A stretch of 64,000 nt of DNA, taken from NCBI GenBank assembly GCA_030066975.1, contig JASJAO010000005.1, positions 124,001 through 188,000 on the forward strand, in the 5' to 3' direction. How positions within the stretch are numbered: the first letter of the stretch is position 1; each line of letters opens with the position of its first letter. This stretch comes from Henriciella sp. GTDB taxonomy: Bacteria; Pseudomonadota; Alphaproteobacteria; Caulobacterales; Hyphomonadaceae. Under the pieces are notes generated by a model, which did not search any database, was not told the origin of the DNA, and saw nothing but the letters and a program-made list of their open reading frames with translations. A program made the position numbers and the translations under genes. Below, piece after piece: positions 52,535-59,989 of the stretch.

Positions 52535-53431
52535 TTAATGCTCAAACCCGAGAGTTTCAGGAAGATTAACGGATTGGCCTCTGAAATTCAGCGACAAGCC
52601 GGGGTCTTCGATCACAATTCCGATCTTTGTGAACTCCTCAAGAACCTGCCCCGCTGGTGCCGTCATCAAGACCTGGTAATCGTCGCCTCCTGTGCACTGA
52701 GCCATGATTTGCTCCAGATCTGAACTCGGTCTGGCAAGCGGAACGTCAGCAAGATCCAGCATGATGCCACAATCCGACGCCTCAGCGAGCCGATATGCGT
52801 CGATCAACAGTCCATCGGAGACATCCAGACTGGCTGTGGCGGCGTCTGACACAGTCTTCGCCACGTCAGGATTGGGCAGAGCGGGAACGCGATAACGATC
52901 AGCAAGGTCATCACCGGGCTTTGCTCGCGCCGCCTCCAGGCCGATATGCCCCCAGCCAATCTGACCGGAAACCCAGACCTCGTCACCGATTCGCGCACCG
53001 CGGCGTCTGACTGGCCCTTCGCCATAACAAACACCCGTGAGGGTGAGAGACAGGCAAACCGGTCCATCGACCGTTACAAAGTCACCGCCCAGTAGATCGA
53101 TACCATATTGTTTCAGATCGGTCGCAATTCCCGCCATCAATGCGGCAAAGTCCTGCTCGCTGCGCTGCGACGACCAACTCACCGACAATAGCGCCTCATG
53201 CGGGCGGGCGCCTTTGGCAAGAATGTCTGAGACGTTCACCCGAATCAGTTTCTGCCCGACCGTACCGATCGGGTCTGAAGGCAGAAAGTGCGTGCCTTCA
53301 ACCAGTGTATCCATCGTCGCGATCATTGTACCGCGCCCTGACAGGACAGCGACATCGTCTCGTAATTGATCTGCGCCCGGCGCCGTAACGAGCGGGCGGA
53401 TATAGCGGTCGATCCAGTCCCGTTCAGTCAC
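52535..53431 (-). CDS. thiL: Thiamine-monophosphate kinase
   Basis: ThiL phosphorylates thiamine monophosphate to the active diphosphate. The 298 residues have the family's acidic ATP/Mg sites: RDDVAVL, MDTLVEGTHF, VNVSDILAKGARP, GGDFVTVDG, SLDVSDGLLIDAYRL and CTGGDDYQVL. Translation starts at GTG 53431, overlapping the upstream LOG gene by eight bases (GTGACTGA). So the two genes are likely coupled. Confidence 0.95.
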   Translation of the reverse strand: MTERDWIDRYIRPLVTAPGADQLRDDVAVLSGRGTMIATMDTLVEGTHFLPSDPIGTVGQKLIRVNVSDILAKGARPHEALLSVSWSSQRSEQDFAALMAGIATDLKQYGIDLLGGDFVTVDGPVCLSLTLTGVCYGEGPVRRRGARIGDEVWVSGQIGWGHIGLEAARAKPGDDLADRYRVPALPNPDVAKTVSDAATASLDVSDGLLIDAYRLAEASDCGIMLDLADVPLARPSSDLEQIMAQCTGGDDYQVLMTAPAGQVLEEFTKIGIVIEDPGLSLNFRGQSVNLPETLGFEH

Positions 53432-53987
53432 CGAGCTTCACAATGCGATCGCAAAGCGCCTGGATCGACGCTTCCGGCGTCTGCTCATGGACCAGCGTGG
53501 CGCGGAACTCCTGAGGGGTGAACCGGCCATCAATAATGTGATCCATCAGCTCAAAGAAGGGCGTCCAGAACCCGTCCTCGTCGAGAAAGGCCATAGGCTT
53601 GGCGTGCAGGCCGAGACGCGCCCAGGACAGCATCTCGACCGCTTCCTCAAGGGTGCCGATCCCGCCTGGAAGAACGATAAAGGCATCACTTTCATCGAAC
53701 ATGCGCTGTTTACGCGTGTGCATGTCTTCGACGATCTCGTGCGGCACCTCGTCGAAGACACGTTCTTTCTGGAGCAGAAAACGCGGCATGATGCCCAGCA
53801 CTTCGCCGCCATCACTGTGCACGGCTCTGGCGCAAGCCCCCATCAGACCAACCCCGCCGCCGCCATAGACCAGCCGAATGCCCTTCTGCGCCAGTGTGCG
53901 GCCGAGATCCTGTGCCAGACGCAAATAATCAGACTTCACATCATCAGATGATCCACAATACACACATACAGATTTCAGTGTTGCCAT
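53424..53987 (-). CDS. LOG family protein (TIGR00730, Rossmann fold)
   Basis: A 187-residue protein of the LOG/YvdD family, whose members act as cytokinin riboside 5'-monophosphate phosphoribohydrolases, probably in nucleotide turnover in bacteria. The signature PGGIGTLEEAVEMLSW and the N-terminal SVCVYCGSSDDV and LVYGGGGVGLMGA blocks are present. A good ribosome-binding site, GAGGAG, precedes ATG 53987. It is divergent from the Atm1-type exporter gene. Confidence 0.93.
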   Translation of the reverse strand: MATLKSVCVYCGSSDDVKSDYLRLAQDLGRTLAQKGIRLVYGGGGVGLMGACARAVHSDGGEVLGIMPRFLLQKERVFDEVPHEIVEDMHTRKQRMFDESDAFIVLPGGIGTLEEAVEMLSWARLGLHAKPMAFLDEDGFWTPFFELMDHIIDGRFTPQEFRATLVHEQTPEASIQALCDRIVKLGD

Positions 53988-54124
53988 TTCAAGCTCCTCA
54001 ATCCACGCGGATCAAACAAACGACCAACGCTCTAGGACAGGTCGCACCAACCTGCCAGCCCCGAACCAAGCGAACTCGCCATTTGTCAGTATTTTTGTTG
54101 GCGGTGTGGGCGCTCTTGCCCCAT

Positions 54125-55972
54125 ATGGCGGGGATGAGCACTGCACACGCCCAAACCGACTCCGACAAGATTGAAAGCGCTGATGGCGGCATTGGCGTTT
54201 CAATCGGCCGTATCCTGAAGCTGCTGGCACGATCGGAGCTCGCCAAATGGCGTCCGGTCATGGTGCTGGCTGTACTTCTCACGCTCGGTGCGGCCGTGCT
54301 GGAAGTCGTCTTCCCGCTCTTGCTCGGTTACGCGATCAATCAATTGGTTGCAGACGAAGCGGGCCTTGTCACCGGTGCTGCCGCGGCGGCCTTGTGGCTT
54401 GCTATCGCCTTCGCCATCAAATTCCTCGCCGGTGGCCTGCCGCAATTGCGCGACTGGCTGTTCTCCCCCGTCAGTCAGGATGCCCAGCGCGTGGTCTGTG
54501 TCGATGCGTTCGGTCACGCTCAAAGCCTGTCGCTTGGCTTTCATCAGACCCGGCGCACCGGGGCTCTAAATCGTGTGATTGAGCGCGGCGCCAGCGCGAT
54601 CGACTACCTCATCCGTTTCCTCGCCTTCAATATCGGCCCGACCATTGTGCGACTGGGGCTTGCTGCGATCGCGTTGGCGCTGGCCTATGACGCCTGGCTC
54701 GCTGTCATCGCGGTCACGACGATCGTGATCTATGCTGTCACCACCATCATGATCACCGAGTGGCGAGTTCGCCAGCGCCGGAAAATGAACGAAGCCGACA
54801 CAAGGTTCCGCGGGATCGCGGTCGACATCCTGACCAATTTCGAAACGGTAAAGTCATTCGCAGCCGAGACCCGCGAAACGGGCCGCTTCAATGACGCCAT
54901 GCAGAACTATAATCACCGCTATGTCGACGCCGTCCGCTCGATGTATGTGCTGAATGCAGCACAGGCCCTGGTCATGAATCTCGGCTTCGTCGCCGCTCTT
55001 GTTCTTTCGGCCTGGCGGGTCTCCCAAGGCAGCATGCAGATCGGAGACCTGATGGCCGTGTTTGCAATGTTCTCGTCACTGTATGCCCCGCTGAACATCC
55101 TCGGTTGGGCCTGGAGGGAGATCAAACAGGGCGCCGTCGATCTGGAGAAACTGTACGGTCTGCTGCAGATGAAACCTGAAGTGGCTGATCGCCCCAACGC
55201 GACCACGCTGACCAAGCCCGAAGGCCGCGTCACATTTGAAAATGTCGGCTTCACCCATGATGCGCGCGCGATCGGGGTTCAGGACATCAGTTTCGAAACC
55301 CCGCCCGGCAAAAAGATCGCCTTTGTCGGCACGTCCGGGGCTGGCAAGTCGACGCTTCTGAAGCTGCTCTTCCGTTTTTACGATGTGCAATCGGGTCGCG
55401 TTCTGGTCGATGGCAAAGATGTGCGGGACCTGACCCAGGAAAGCCTGCGAAATGCCTTGGGCCTGGTGCCGCAAGACGTGGTTCTGTTCAACGAGACGAT
55501 CAAAGCCAATATCGCCTATGCCCGTCCTGACGCAGATATGGACGCACTTCGCGACGCCGCCAAACGCGCCCAATTGCTCGACTTCATTGAAGGCCTGCCC
55601 GACGGCTGGGACACTCGCGTCGGCGAACGCGGCCTGAAACTCTCCGGCGGGGAGAAACAGCGTGTTGGCATCGCCCGCGTGATTCTGGCCAATCCGGCCG
55701 TGCTGGTTCTGGACGAAGCGACCTCCGCGCTCGACAGCGCAACCGAAGAAGCCGTGCAAGGTGCCCTGGATGAGGCCGCGAAAGGCCGTACCACGCTGAT
55801 GGTCGCCCATCGCTTGTCGACGGTGCAAAACGCCGATGAAATCATCGTTCTGAAAGCGGGTCGGATCATTGAACGCGGACCACACGAAGACCTATTGGCA
55901 TTAAAGGGCGAATATGCCGATATGTGGGCGCGACAGGCCAAGCGCGATGCCTTGGCGGTCGCCGCGGAATAG
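54125..55972 (+). CDS. Atm1/HMT1-type ABC exporter (fused membrane and ATPase domains)
   Basis: A half-transporter of about 612-615 residues like mitochondrial Atm1 and bacterial NaAtm1, which export glutathione-linked sulfur or metal compounds. The membrane domain has the Atm1 blocks RTGALNRVIERG, FNIGPTIVRLGL and EADTRFRGIAVDILTNFETVKSF. The ATPase has Walker A GTSGAGKST, signature LSGGEKQR and Walker B VLVLDEATSALD. The start is uncertain: ATG 54125 or 54134 are both possible and neither has a good ribosome-binding site. A hydrophobic stretch upstream in frame resembles a signal peptide but would be unusual here. It is followed by a PSD-like gene. Confidence 0.9.
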   Translation: MAGMSTAHAQTDSDKIESADGGIGVSIGRILKLLARSELAKWRPVMVLAVLLTLGAAVLEVVFPLLLGYAINQLVADEAGLVTGAAAAALWLAIAFAIKFLAGGLPQLRDWLFSPVSQDAQRVVCVDAFGHAQSLSLGFHQTRRTGALNRVIERGASAIDYLIRFLAFNIGPTIVRLGLAAIALALAYDAWLAVIAVTTIVIYAVTTIMITEWRVRQRRKMNEADTRFRGIAVDILTNFETVKSFAAETRETGRFNDAMQNYNHRYVDAVRSMYVLNAAQALVMNLGFVAALVLSAWRVSQGSMQIGDLMAVFAMFSSLYAPLNILGWAWREIKQGAVDLEKLYGLLQMKPEVADRPNATTLTKPEGRVTFENVGFTHDARAIGVQDISFETPPGKKIAFVGTSGAGKSTLLKLLFRFYDVQSGRVLVDGKDVRDLTQESLRNALGLVPQDVVLFNETIKANIAYARPDADMDALRDAAKRAQLLDFIEGLPDGWDTRVGERGLKLSGGEKQRVGIARVILANPAVLVLDEATSALDSATEEAVQGALDEAAKGRTTLMVAHRLSTVQNADEIIVLKAGRIIERGPHEDLLALKGEYADMWARQAKRDALAVAAE

Positions 55973-55984
55973 CACAGGAGGGAC

Positions 55985-56926
55985 ATGATGTCCGGCACCG
56001 ACAGTGATCTCAGCACAAAGCAGTTTCCCTGGCTGCGCAGTGGATTTGATCTAGAAGGATGGGTTGGTGCGATCGCCGCTCTTCTGGTCGGTATCCTGCT
56101 GAGCATGCTGTGGAGCCCGCTTTTCCTGATTGGTCTTGCTGGAGCTGTTTTGATCCTGTTCGCCACGCGGACTGCGACGCGCACACCGCCTCAGGGCGAC
56201 AATATGATCGTTGCCCCATGTGACGGCCTGGTCGTTTCTGTTGCAGGCGCCCGCCCGGCGGATGAGCTGCGCCTTGGCAGTGGCGAATGGACCCGGATCC
56301 GGGTCTCCAAGGGACCGACCAAGAGCAACGGCGTTTACGCGCCCATGGACGGGGCGATCGACCACGTGATCAGCGAGACGGGTGATCCGGCTGCGTTCGC
56401 TGCGATGAAAGTCGATCGACCGGGCCTGGCCGTCACGTTTATTTCGTTTGAAAGCGGTGCTCGCAGCATGGGCTTGCGGCTCGCAACCGGCGGGCTCGGC
56501 CCCCGTCTCGAGATGAGCTCGGACCCGGGCGATGCGGTACGGCTAGGCCGCAATATCGGCACACTTCGTTTGGGTGGTTGGTGCGACATCTATGTTCCGA
56601 AGGAAGCCGGTGTCAGCGTCTTGCCCGGTCAAACATTGATCGGATCTGAAACCGTCATCGCCACGTTCGAAGCTGACGCGATCCAGCCCGTCGCCCCCGC
56701 GCCAATGCCCGCACCAGCGGCGCCAGACCCTGAACCAGCTCCCAAGCCCGAATCTGAGCCGGTCGCAGATGCAGACGAAGAAGACGAACCTTCCGGCTCA
56801 ACCGCTGAAGAGCCGCCAGAGGGCGACGAGGGAAAAGAGACTGACGCATCGGTTGAAGACGACGAAGACGTCTCTGACATGCTCGCCCGCCTTCGTGAAG
56901 AGGCGCGCAAGGACTATGACGATTAA
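55985..56926 (+). CDS. Phosphatidylserine decarboxylase-like protein, predicted inactive
   Basis: The 313 residues align with short-type phosphatidylserine decarboxylase over about residues 25-230. It has two N-terminal hydrophobic segments, then VAPCDGLVVSV (usual SPADGxV), a PADELRLGS region and a C-terminal RLGGWCDIYVP, followed by VLPGQTLIGSETVIATF. In true PSD the last block is RFGSRxDVYLP, and self-cleavage at the Gly-Ser bond forms the pyruvoyl cofactor. Here the Ser is Gly198. The conserved HVNRxP histidine is also lost (KSNGVYAP), as is the NER block. A Pro/Glu/Asp-rich tail follows from about residue 232. It lies twelve bases after the exporter gene, where psd is often found in this class. 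A structural or regulatory role is inference. Confidence 0.75.
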   Translation: MMSGTDSDLSTKQFPWLRSGFDLEGWVGAIAALLVGILLSMLWSPLFLIGLAGAVLILFATRTATRTPPQGDNMIVAPCDGLVVSVAGARPADELRLGSGEWTRIRVSKGPTKSNGVYAPMDGAIDHVISETGDPAAFAAMKVDRPGLAVTFISFESGARSMGLRLATGGLGPRLEMSSDPGDAVRLGRNIGTLRLGGWCDIYVPKEAGVSVLPGQTLIGSETVIATFEADAIQPVAPAPMPAPAAPDPEPAPKPESEPVADADEEDEPSGSTAEEPPEGDEGKETDASVEDDEDVSDMLARLREEARKDYDD

Positions 56927-56944: not shown

Positions 56945-57604
56945 TTAGTCTCGTACATAGGTCTCCAGCACATCGTCGCCGATACGCGTCGCAGACACAC
57001 TTCGCCAGCGCGGCGCGTTCTCCATTTTGGTGAGACCAAGCGCGGCAATCGCAGGCAAGCCATCGCCGCCAATCAGGATCGGGGCACGAAACCACTGGAT
57101 CGTATCGACCAGACCTGCGGCGACAAAGCTTGCCGCCAGTTTGCCGCCACCCTCCAGAAAAACGCTCTGCATCCCTTCCACAGCGCAGCGATCAAGTAGC
57201 CGCGCTGGAGAGACTTGTCCCTCAACATCGCCGCAGCGCCAAACCTCTGCACCTGCTTGCTCCAGCGCCTCGACCTGACGCCCTTTCGGTTGCGACGCCG
57301 CGACCACAACCCGGCCAAGGCCAACCGACTGTACCAGTCGCCCTGTCACAGGCGTGCGCGCCTGACTGTCGGCAACAATCCGAACCGGCTGCACATTTGG
57401 CAACGGCACAGTTCGCGCGGTCAGCAAAGGATCGTCGGCCAGGACCGTTCCGACCCCGACCAGCACGACGTCATGTTCCGCCCGCATCTGGTGCACGCGG
57501 GCGCGCGCCTCTGATCCTGTAATCCATTGACTCACGCCATTCGCCAGCGCGATCCGACCATCCATGCTGGTGGCAATTTTCAGCGTGACCGTTGGGCGCG
57601 GCAC
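56945..57604 (-). CDS. RibD reductase-domain protein (no deaminase domain)
   Basis: The 219 residues match the C-terminal reductase half of RibD, which reduces the ribosylaminopyrimidine intermediate of riboflavin synthesis with NADPH. Seen blocks are VTLKIATSMDGRIA, SQWITGSEARARVHQMRA, DVVLVGVGTVLADDPLLT, VFLEGGGKLAASFV and APILIGGDG. The N-terminal zinc deaminase domain (HAE, PCxHxGRTPPC) is missing. It starts at GTG 57604, sharing one base with the nrdR stop, so there is no room for a lost deaminase. Following rib genes are also not present. Confidence 0.88.
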   Translation of the reverse strand: MPRPTVTLKIATSMDGRIALANGVSQWITGSEARARVHQMRAEHDVVLVGVGTVLADDPLLTARTVPLPNVQPVRIVADSQARTPVTGRLVQSVGLGRVVVAASQPKGRQVEALEQAGAEVWRCGDVEGQVSPARLLDRCAVEGMQSVFLEGGGKLAASFVAAGLVDTIQWFRAPILIGGDGLPAIAALGLTKMENAPRWRSVSATRIGDDVLETYVRD

Positions 57605-59373: not shown

Positions 59374-59584
59374 ATCGGCCTGCTCCTCAGGTTTGCCTCT
59401 ATCTACGGTGCGCCGGTCACCACCGCAAGAGACCAATCACCCGCCGAATCTCAAGTGTGGGATTAGCCAAAATTAAGCAGCCCCAACAAATATATTGCCT
59501 ACCCCACCTATTCCATGATTTACTTCGTAGATGCACCATTCAAAGAAATGGGCAAAAACAAAAAAGCACTGCGAGCAAAACAGC
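59374..59584. other. AT-rich intergenic region between glyA and mucR
   Basis: This 211-bp divergent intergenic region is notably A+T-rich against the rest of the window, especially 59460-59580. It must hold the promoters of both genes. MucR proteins bind AT-rich DNA and usually repress their own gene, so autoregulation is likely. I see no clear -35/-10 pair. Confidence 0.4.
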
Positions 59585-59989
59585 ATGAATACACACAACA
59601 AAAGTGAAGTTTTAGAAATGACATCGGACATCGTATCGTCCTTTGTTGCCCACAATCCAGTTCCATCAAGTGCGCTGGTTGATCTGATTAAAACTGTACA
59701 TGAGACAATAGAGGAACTGGCGTCTGACAAGCCTGCAGAGCCGCCCAGACCTGATCCAGCCGTACCGATTTCGAAGTCGATTACGCCTGATCACATCATC
59801 TGCCTGGAAGACGGCAGAAAACTGAAAATGCTGAAAAGATACCTTCGGTCGCGTTATGAACTGACACCAGATGAGTATCGGGCCCGCTGGGGACTTCCGG
59901 CAGACTATCCAATGGTCGCTCCGAATTATGCGAAGAAGCGATCTGCCTTCGCCAAGGAGATTGGCTTGGGACGTAAAAGAGCAAGTTAA
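59585..59989 (+). CDS. mucR: MucR/Ros-family transcriptional regulator
   Basis: A 134-residue regulator of the MucR/Ros family, which control exopolysaccharide, motility and cell-cycle genes in alphaproteobacteria, partly in an H-NS-like way. The N-terminal oligomerisation region starts at EVLEMTSDIVSSFV. The C-terminal DNA-binding domain reads SITPDHIICLEDGRKLKML, ELTPDEYRARWGLPADYPMV and APNYAKKRSA. Of the zinc ligands only Cys73 and Asp76 remain; the usual histidines are Tyr86 and Arg90. Zinc-free members are known in the family. ATG 59585 is used; ATG 59618 is possible. A strong terminator follows. Confidence 0.92.
   Translation: MNTHNKSEVLEMTSDIVSSFVAHNPVPSSALVDLIKTVHETIEELASDKPAEPPRPDPAVPISKSITPDHIICLEDGRKLKMLKRYLRSRYELTPDEYRARWGLPADYPMVAPNYAKKRSAFAKEIGLGRKRAS

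Follow-up and report, generated by a model that had tools for sequence, protein, structure and literature searches.

A conserved phosphatidylserine decarboxylase homologue of Hyphomonadaceae that has lost its self-cleavage serine and lies behind an Atm1-type exporter gene

Introduction

Phosphatidylserine decarboxylase (PSD) of Escherichia coli (7cnw-7cnz, 6l06) consists of two chains produced by cleavage at an LGST motif. According to the accessible parts of PMC7952604, the E. coli variant S254A remains uncleaved; H144N and H144A still cleave, though slowly, and are devoid of decarboxylase activity. The likewise uncleavable S308A variant of the malarial enzyme (Plasmodium knowlesi) still binds liposomes of phosphatidylserine (PS) and phosphatidylglycerol (PG), at 80 and 66 nM, as stated in the available portion of PMC10172927. 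Here we describe a PSD homologue, in the following called pseudo-PSD, encoded at 55985..56926 on the forward strand of a 64,000-nucleotide stretch (the window) from Henriciella sp. (assembly GCA_030066975.1, contig JASJAO010000005.1; Alphaproteobacteria, Caulobacterales, Hyphomonadaceae), which, unlike E. coli PSD, lacks the cleavage-site serine. As in the two mutants, as far as these are described in the text available, loss of the nucleophile would leave a single chain, but S254A and S308A were made in the laboratory, whereas the change in pseudo-PSD is natural, common to several genera and accompanied by further remodelling.

The closest described proteins are the short-type PSDs (PRK05305/PF02666, the alphaproteobacterial psd product), with which pseudo-PSD has the locus, an N-terminal hydrophobic segment and the predicted fold in common. 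It differs from them by the exchange of Ser for Gly, of His for Asn and of the N-E-R block together with pocket residues, by the possession of an acidic linker and a C-terminal helix, and by the lack of an accompanying pssA gene.

Results

Pseudo-PSD matches PF02666 with an E-value of 2.9e-8 and 34.1 bits (cut-off 22), which supports homology, while its 92.2 bits against PRK05305.1-1 of NCBIfam stay below the equivalog cut-off of 315, and the other NCBIfam short-type PSD models also match far under their equivalog cut-offs. Judged from these profiles, the relation to PSD is real but remote, and the homology claimed by the initial annotation, which had been made from the window alone, stands in this form. 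PF02666 is likewise matched by all 20 members of the pseudo-PSD alignment A1, and the search for another psd proposed at that time returned pseudo-PSD as the sole PF02666 match of the source genome (3.57 Mb, 24 contigs, 99.98% complete). Searches of PDB sequences, with the single sequence and with a profile, yielded no PSD, which was found through fold comparison only: the top nine Foldseek rows obtained with the predicted model were E. coli PSD chains, none of them at E 0.001 or better, and the whole-model fit was poor (TM-score about 0.3-0.4, root-mean-square deviation 10-19 Å). The M23/LytM peptidases and RNA polymerase inserts that also matched by fold were discounted as reflecting a common barrel.

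Residues kept as in short-type PSD are Arg62, Arg66, Asp80, Gly81, Gly188, Gly197, Asp201, Gly215 and Glu222. The cleavage-site Ser is Gly198, located within residues 195-201 (RLGGWCD; 56567..56587, forward strand), which replace RFGSRxD and form a dead self-cleavage site. This site reads Gly-Gly-Trp in 83/83 sequences that reach it (81 by pattern, L223 and L225 by eye), the 84th (L252) stopping at a contig edge before it; the count was taken only from the 84 loci of the genome search, another set of loci having been collected with the patterns GGWCD and A[TS]GG[LF]GPR. Asn115 (56327..56329, forward strand) replaces the HVNR His, and among the 83 pseudo-PSDs 98% have Asn and 2% Thr at this position; the N-E-R block (147-149) is Gly-Leu-Ala in the window gene and Gly-Leu-x in the family. 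Asp, His, N-E-R and Gly-Ser-Arg occupy the matching columns in all 42 realigned short-type PSDs from other families of the class. A first set of real PSDs (23 rows) had been picked by a pattern requiring Gly-Ser, which makes its Ser and Gly columns circular; the real PSDs were re-selected by a profile free of that pattern, though itself built from the first set, which gave 42 of 47 loci and left out five lacking a short-type match (L041-L043, L051, L067). The three losses read from the window gene (Ser, the HVNR His and N-E-R) and the conservation of the Gly198 site, which the initial annotation had suggested checking across the family, were thereby borne out. Catalytic loss and psd ancestry are well supported, and on its residues pseudo-PSD is almost certainly a non-catalytic pseudoenzyme.

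The protein could still act as an enzyme if its nucleophile had shifted, e.g., to Cys200 by the old site, serving self-cleavage or other chemistry, and position 200 is indeed Cys in 75, Ser in 4 and Thr in 1 of the 83 sequences. However, Tyr occupies this position in three otherwise normal members, for which reason Cys200 was rejected as a shifted nucleophile, and with the His almost always exchanged for Asn, N-E-R and other pocket residues gone and no pssA as a source of substrate, retained catalysis is very unlikely.

Orthologues were found in 84 of 105 family genomes, with one match each and no internal stop in any, and their identity to the window protein ranges from 38 to 66% (own genome excluded). 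They occur in 73 of the 89 good family genomes and in 6 of 10 genera, the carriers being mostly marine bacteria; the named ones (63 loci matching alignment A1) are mainly Hyphomonas, Henriciella, Ponticaulis and Hyphomonadaceae, with some plain Alphaproteobacteria or Rhodobacterales. Four records titled Acidobacteria or Candidatus Sulfopaludibacter (L144, L149, L157, L165) hold a Hyphomonas-like locus, and their titles are probably wrong. Residues gained in at least 98% of the 83 sequences comprise Trp16, Asp22, Ser85, Arg106, Pro111, Asn115, Leu148, Gly163, Gly170, Gly172, Pro173 and Trp199, and this replacement of the old active-site residues by a new, near-fixed set argues for a new function and not for decay.

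A functionless relic in slow decay would fit the lack of a match in the other 21 family genomes and in nearly all of the remaining order. Against such a relic stand the uninterrupted frames and, in the unbiased set, the near-invariance of the gained residues; 25 invariant columns among 46 sequences can be added from a set biased by loci picked with two motif patterns. Of 29 close pairs, 27 yielded a ratio of nonsynonymous to synonymous substitution rates (dN/dS, NG86) for the domain, which ranged from 0.022 to 0.155 and was below 0.16 throughout, although several pairs have dS > 1 and are saturated; the other two yielded none. In most pairs the tail exceeds the domain, reaching up to 0.395. 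On these values decay, the outcome that the initial annotation had named as speaking against a new role, was rejected, and a relic is close to inconceivable. By its substitution pattern pseudo-PSD is under purifying selection and not decaying, and a selected new role is very probable. In an unrooted tree of the core of 44 of the 83 pseudo rows and 42 real PSDs, a single branch (100/100) parts pseudo from real, which does not alone prove one origin. One genome with a pseudo-PSD also holds a second strong PF02666 match (76 bits; L044, G014:C150:4-273) at a contig end, possibly a contamination.

The pseudo-PSD frame encodes 313 amino acids, from an ATG at 55985, with a second possible ATG at 55988, to a TAA stop at 56924-56926. 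AGGAGGG, which resembles a ribosome-binding site and was read directly, lies at 55976..55982 (forward strand), inside the 12-nucleotide gap between the exporter stop codon and the gene. On the same strand, residues 23-60 (56051..56164) probably form a two-helix membrane hairpin, as suggested by hydrophobicity and an AlphaFold2 model with helices at 23-42 and 46-60; the membrane attachment assumed earlier is consistent with this prediction. Residues 61-230 (56165..56674, forward strand) make up the PSD-like beta domain, as delimited by the PF02666 match (61-226) and Foldseek. The linker of residues 231-295 (56675..56869, forward strand) is acidic, rich in Pro and Ala and predicted with low confidence (mean pLDDT 45-71 per ten-residue block, 231-290). 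It leads to a predicted C-terminal helix at residues 296-312 (56870..56920, forward strand), which appears in the AlphaFold2 model (pLDDT 74 for 291-300, 92 for 301-310 and 78 for 311-313) and bears an FxRLR-like motif, LARLR in the window gene. The long acidic tail seen in the window gene runs through all 83 sequences (median 78 amino acids; median net charge -19, range -39 to -2), and the motif closes it in 72 of them, compared with an expectation of 0.001 per shuffle in shuffled tails; the helix had escaped the initial annotation.

The gene lies behind that of an Atm1-type ABC exporter at 53894..55972 (forward strand, start codon uncertain; PF00664, PF00005), whose best PDB match is 4mrn, an ATM1-type heavy metal exporter (E 5.3e-142). 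Its divergent neighbour at 53424..53987 (reverse strand; PF03641, PF18306) is an SLOG-type gene, presumably LOG, which served as locus marker. An exporter gene stands upstream on the same strand in 64/64 pseudo-PSD loci (the window and 63 others), and the divergent LOG gene was found in 63/64. The exporter-to-pseudo-PSD gap is 48 nucleotides or less, and short overlaps occur, for which -20 was the lowest value that the computation allowed. Downstream, a ctaA-like gene, which by its motif we take to encode haem A synthase, follows within 4 kb in 39/64 loci, the window not among them, at least 1.5 kb of downstream sequence being present in 56/64. This gene is often next behind the exporter or pseudo-PSD gene (L170-L189, L107-L169).

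Real psd genes of the class show what the locus may have looked like before. In 14 of 14 class genomes a pssA-type gene, recognised by motif, lies directly behind or overlaps psd (in L083 and L085 within long stop-to-stop frames), and TIGR00473, the pssA model, matches at the same places in all 14; a related exporter precedes psd within 0.7 kb in five of these loci (L081, L082, L086, L087, L094). The arrangement of an exporter beside psd and pssA, described as common in the initial annotation, thus holds for pssA and to a lesser extent for the exporter. In the 12 scanned of 13 retrieved pseudo-PSD neighbourhoods the CDP-alcohol-transferase motif of pssA was found in none, nor was it present in window frames of at least 120 amino acids, in line with the earlier remark that no pssA follows. 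With the exporter in front and the locus the same as that of psd in the class, pseudo-PSD is psd by position, with pssA gone, and this positional orthology is well supported. A late insertion exactly at the old psd position is the less likely origin; vertical descent from psd does require several losses elsewhere in the order.

The pathway itself appears to be missing. TIGR00473 exceeded its cut-off in 0/105 family genomes (best 40 bits) and in 0/80 order genomes, 17 of which belong to the family (best 38 bits), and the source genome held no pssA-level match. In the 14 control genomes it reached 97-130 bits beside psd, with 9/14 over the cut-off; the curated cut-off is strict, yet the score gap to the controls is wide. 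PF02666 was matched in 77 of 398 order genomes, namely 74 of the family and G206, G260 and G365 with strong, long matches, and in 132 of 190 genomes of the class sample, two of them from the family. By these gene counts the order has almost wholly lost the pathway, and in its absence the family has retained psd.

A second psd or another route to phosphatidylethanolamine in the genome was considered and rejected, PF02666 occurring only at pseudo-PSD and the CDP-alcohol transferases being of other types, one pgsA-like (below the pgsA cut-off) and one inositol-phosphate-synthase-like (below every cut-off). The pgsA-like protein (L002:1297-2079, G000:C13; 260 amino acids) scores 96.8 bits against a cut-off of 109.1, its match spreads 235 residues over 173 model positions, and it seems to carry an insertion. 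The stretch L003:940-3309 places a CDP-alcohol transferase in a row with what we take to be a HAD-like phosphatase and a nucleotidyltransferase, perhaps for the synthesis of an inositol-phosphate lipid. No PLD-type PF13091 match in the genome passed the cut-off, a single weak one lying at G000:C22:116087-116422 in a 734-amino-acid frame.

In the accessible passage of PMC3368421, PG is given as the single phospholipid found in Hirschia, with the caveat, stated there, that the lipid studies may have looked at phospholipids alone, and its reference list contains a title on Hyphomonas jannaschiana 'lacking in phospholipids'. Hyphomonas jannaschiana VP2 carries a pseudo-PSD (L133). The available parts of PMC6445935, PMC7179689 and PMC13109427 contained nothing on absence of phosphatidylethanolamine in Hyphomonadaceae. 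From the missing genes, one passage and one title on related species, we infer that phosphatidylethanolamine is absent in the lineage; its loss, with which, according to the initial annotation, psd lost its function, keeps its place to this extent.

Among the 21 family genomes without a pseudo-PSD match, 19 contain the exporter, none being found in G088 and G102, whose completeness is about 80%. A scan of gene-less loci for a more degenerate PSD next to the exporter gave 0/29 (A1 profile, E 1, open reading frames of at least 40 amino acids, flanks of up to 1.5 kb), the same profile recovering 84/84 positives as a control. A ctaA-like gene lies in the flank of five of the 19 gene-less family loci, and the loss has the appearance of a deletion that cleanly removed what lay between exporter and ctaA. 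An exporter tree (FastTree; 21 of the 69 with the gene and all 29 without) groups the gene-bearing exporters in a single clade with support 0.95, and those of the 19 gene-less family genomes in another with 0.77.

Two other genes of the window deserve mention. The ribD gene at 56945-57604 (reverse strand, 219 amino acids) covers the reductase half only (RibD_C), frames for the deaminase half being found elsewhere (G000:C2:134742 and, weaker, C13:366975), and the usual fused RibD seems split. A ROS/MucR-type regulator gene (PF05443) lies at 59531-59989 on the forward strand.

Discussion

We propose that pseudo-PSD is the former psd product of a LOG/Atm1 exporter/psd/pssA locus, retained after the loss of pssA and, presumably, of phosphatidylethanolamine. 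It would persist as a single uncleaved, proenzyme-like chain tethered to the inner membrane by its hairpin, and its PSD domain would face the cytoplasm. As a non-catalytic accessory of the exporter, it would bind, through the remodelled pocket, the headgroup of an anionic lipid or a glyco-lipid, or else a protein surface; the acidic linker and C-terminal helix would contact a partner, most likely the exporter. As a whole, the explanation of pseudo-PSD as a membrane-anchored, uncleaved, lipid-binding accessory of the exporter is the one we favour, with modest confidence.

Its weakest part is the partner. The link to the exporter, suspected from the window alone, is supported by the invariant synteny and stays plausible but circumstantial on gene order; that the exporter is the main partner is a tentative assignment, slightly short of even. 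Several observations weigh against it or against the mechanism as a whole. Nineteen family genomes hold the exporter and LOG with no PSD-like open reading frame in the adjoining sequence (at most 1.5 kb). Of 11 genomes sampled from other families, which have almost no psd, 10 likewise gave an exporter match. Strict two-way co-occurrence of exporter and pseudo-PSD does not hold, and the exporter, being retained without pseudo-PSD, can do without it. The single gene-bearing exporter clade makes the retention one event in this sample, and the genomes do not count as independent instances of it. Across 13 loci, identity to the window proteins is 57-74% for the exporter but only 40-60% for pseudo-PSD. 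The C-terminal FxRLR-like motif is absent from 11 of the 83 members. Moreover, the E. coli H144 mutants still cleave (PMC7952604, in the part available), which leaves the serine as the basis for assuming that the chain stays whole; Asn115 was equated with H144 from the HVNR context and not from an alignment of the E. coli sequence.

Part of this evidence would also suit a free-standing lipid sensor or scaffold, whose pocket binds an anionic or glucuronosyl-type lipid and which signals to a target other than the exporter, the gene order being merely inherited. That the exporter survives in 19 family genomes which lack the gene speaks for it, as do the binding of PG and PS by an uncleaved PSD proenzyme (accessible text of PMC10172927) and the unusual lipids of the family (Hirschia passage and Hyphomonas reference titles in the visible part of PMC3368421). 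The exporter is, however, adjacent in every pseudo-PSD locus while the region downstream varies, as seen for the ctaA-like gene, an argument that is weak with genomes of one clade, and we regard such a sensor as possible but rather unlikely.

A further possibility comes from the fold. IIA-Glc binds MalK ATPases, and pseudo-PSD might by analogy be a regulator that clamps the exporter. The IIA-Glc phosphocarrier (1f3g) is 18% identical to pseudo-PSD and the likeness is a fold match only, and we consider a clamp improbable.

Taken furthest, the accessory role that we favour would mean that a PSD turned into a permanently uncleaved, lipid-sensing subunit of an Atm1-type exporter after phosphatidylethanolamine was lost, its dead pocket reading the lipid and its acidic arm and helix gating or assembling the transporter, even in a species reported to be without phospholipids. 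This is a speculative and, in our view, unlikely version.

No paper pairing 'phosphatidylserine decarboxylase' with 'pseudoenzyme' or 'Hyphomonas' was found in the literature searched, most subscription papers being outside its scope, nor was any on this conserved PSD variant. PSD is usually regarded as a housekeeping enzyme, and a conserved pseudoenzyme in bacteria without the pathway would surprise a specialist. As pseudo-PSDs exceed the Pfam PSD cut-off, an automatic pipeline may assign to Hyphomonas and Henriciella a phosphatidylethanolamine synthesis that they probably lack. A natural Ser-to-Gly PSD family spanning several genera offers a clean case of an enzyme turned pseudoenzyme in connection with an altered membrane chemistry. 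Pseudo-PSD, which can be studied in a cultivable genus, also gives a testable starting point for asking how Atm1-type exporters may be regulated.
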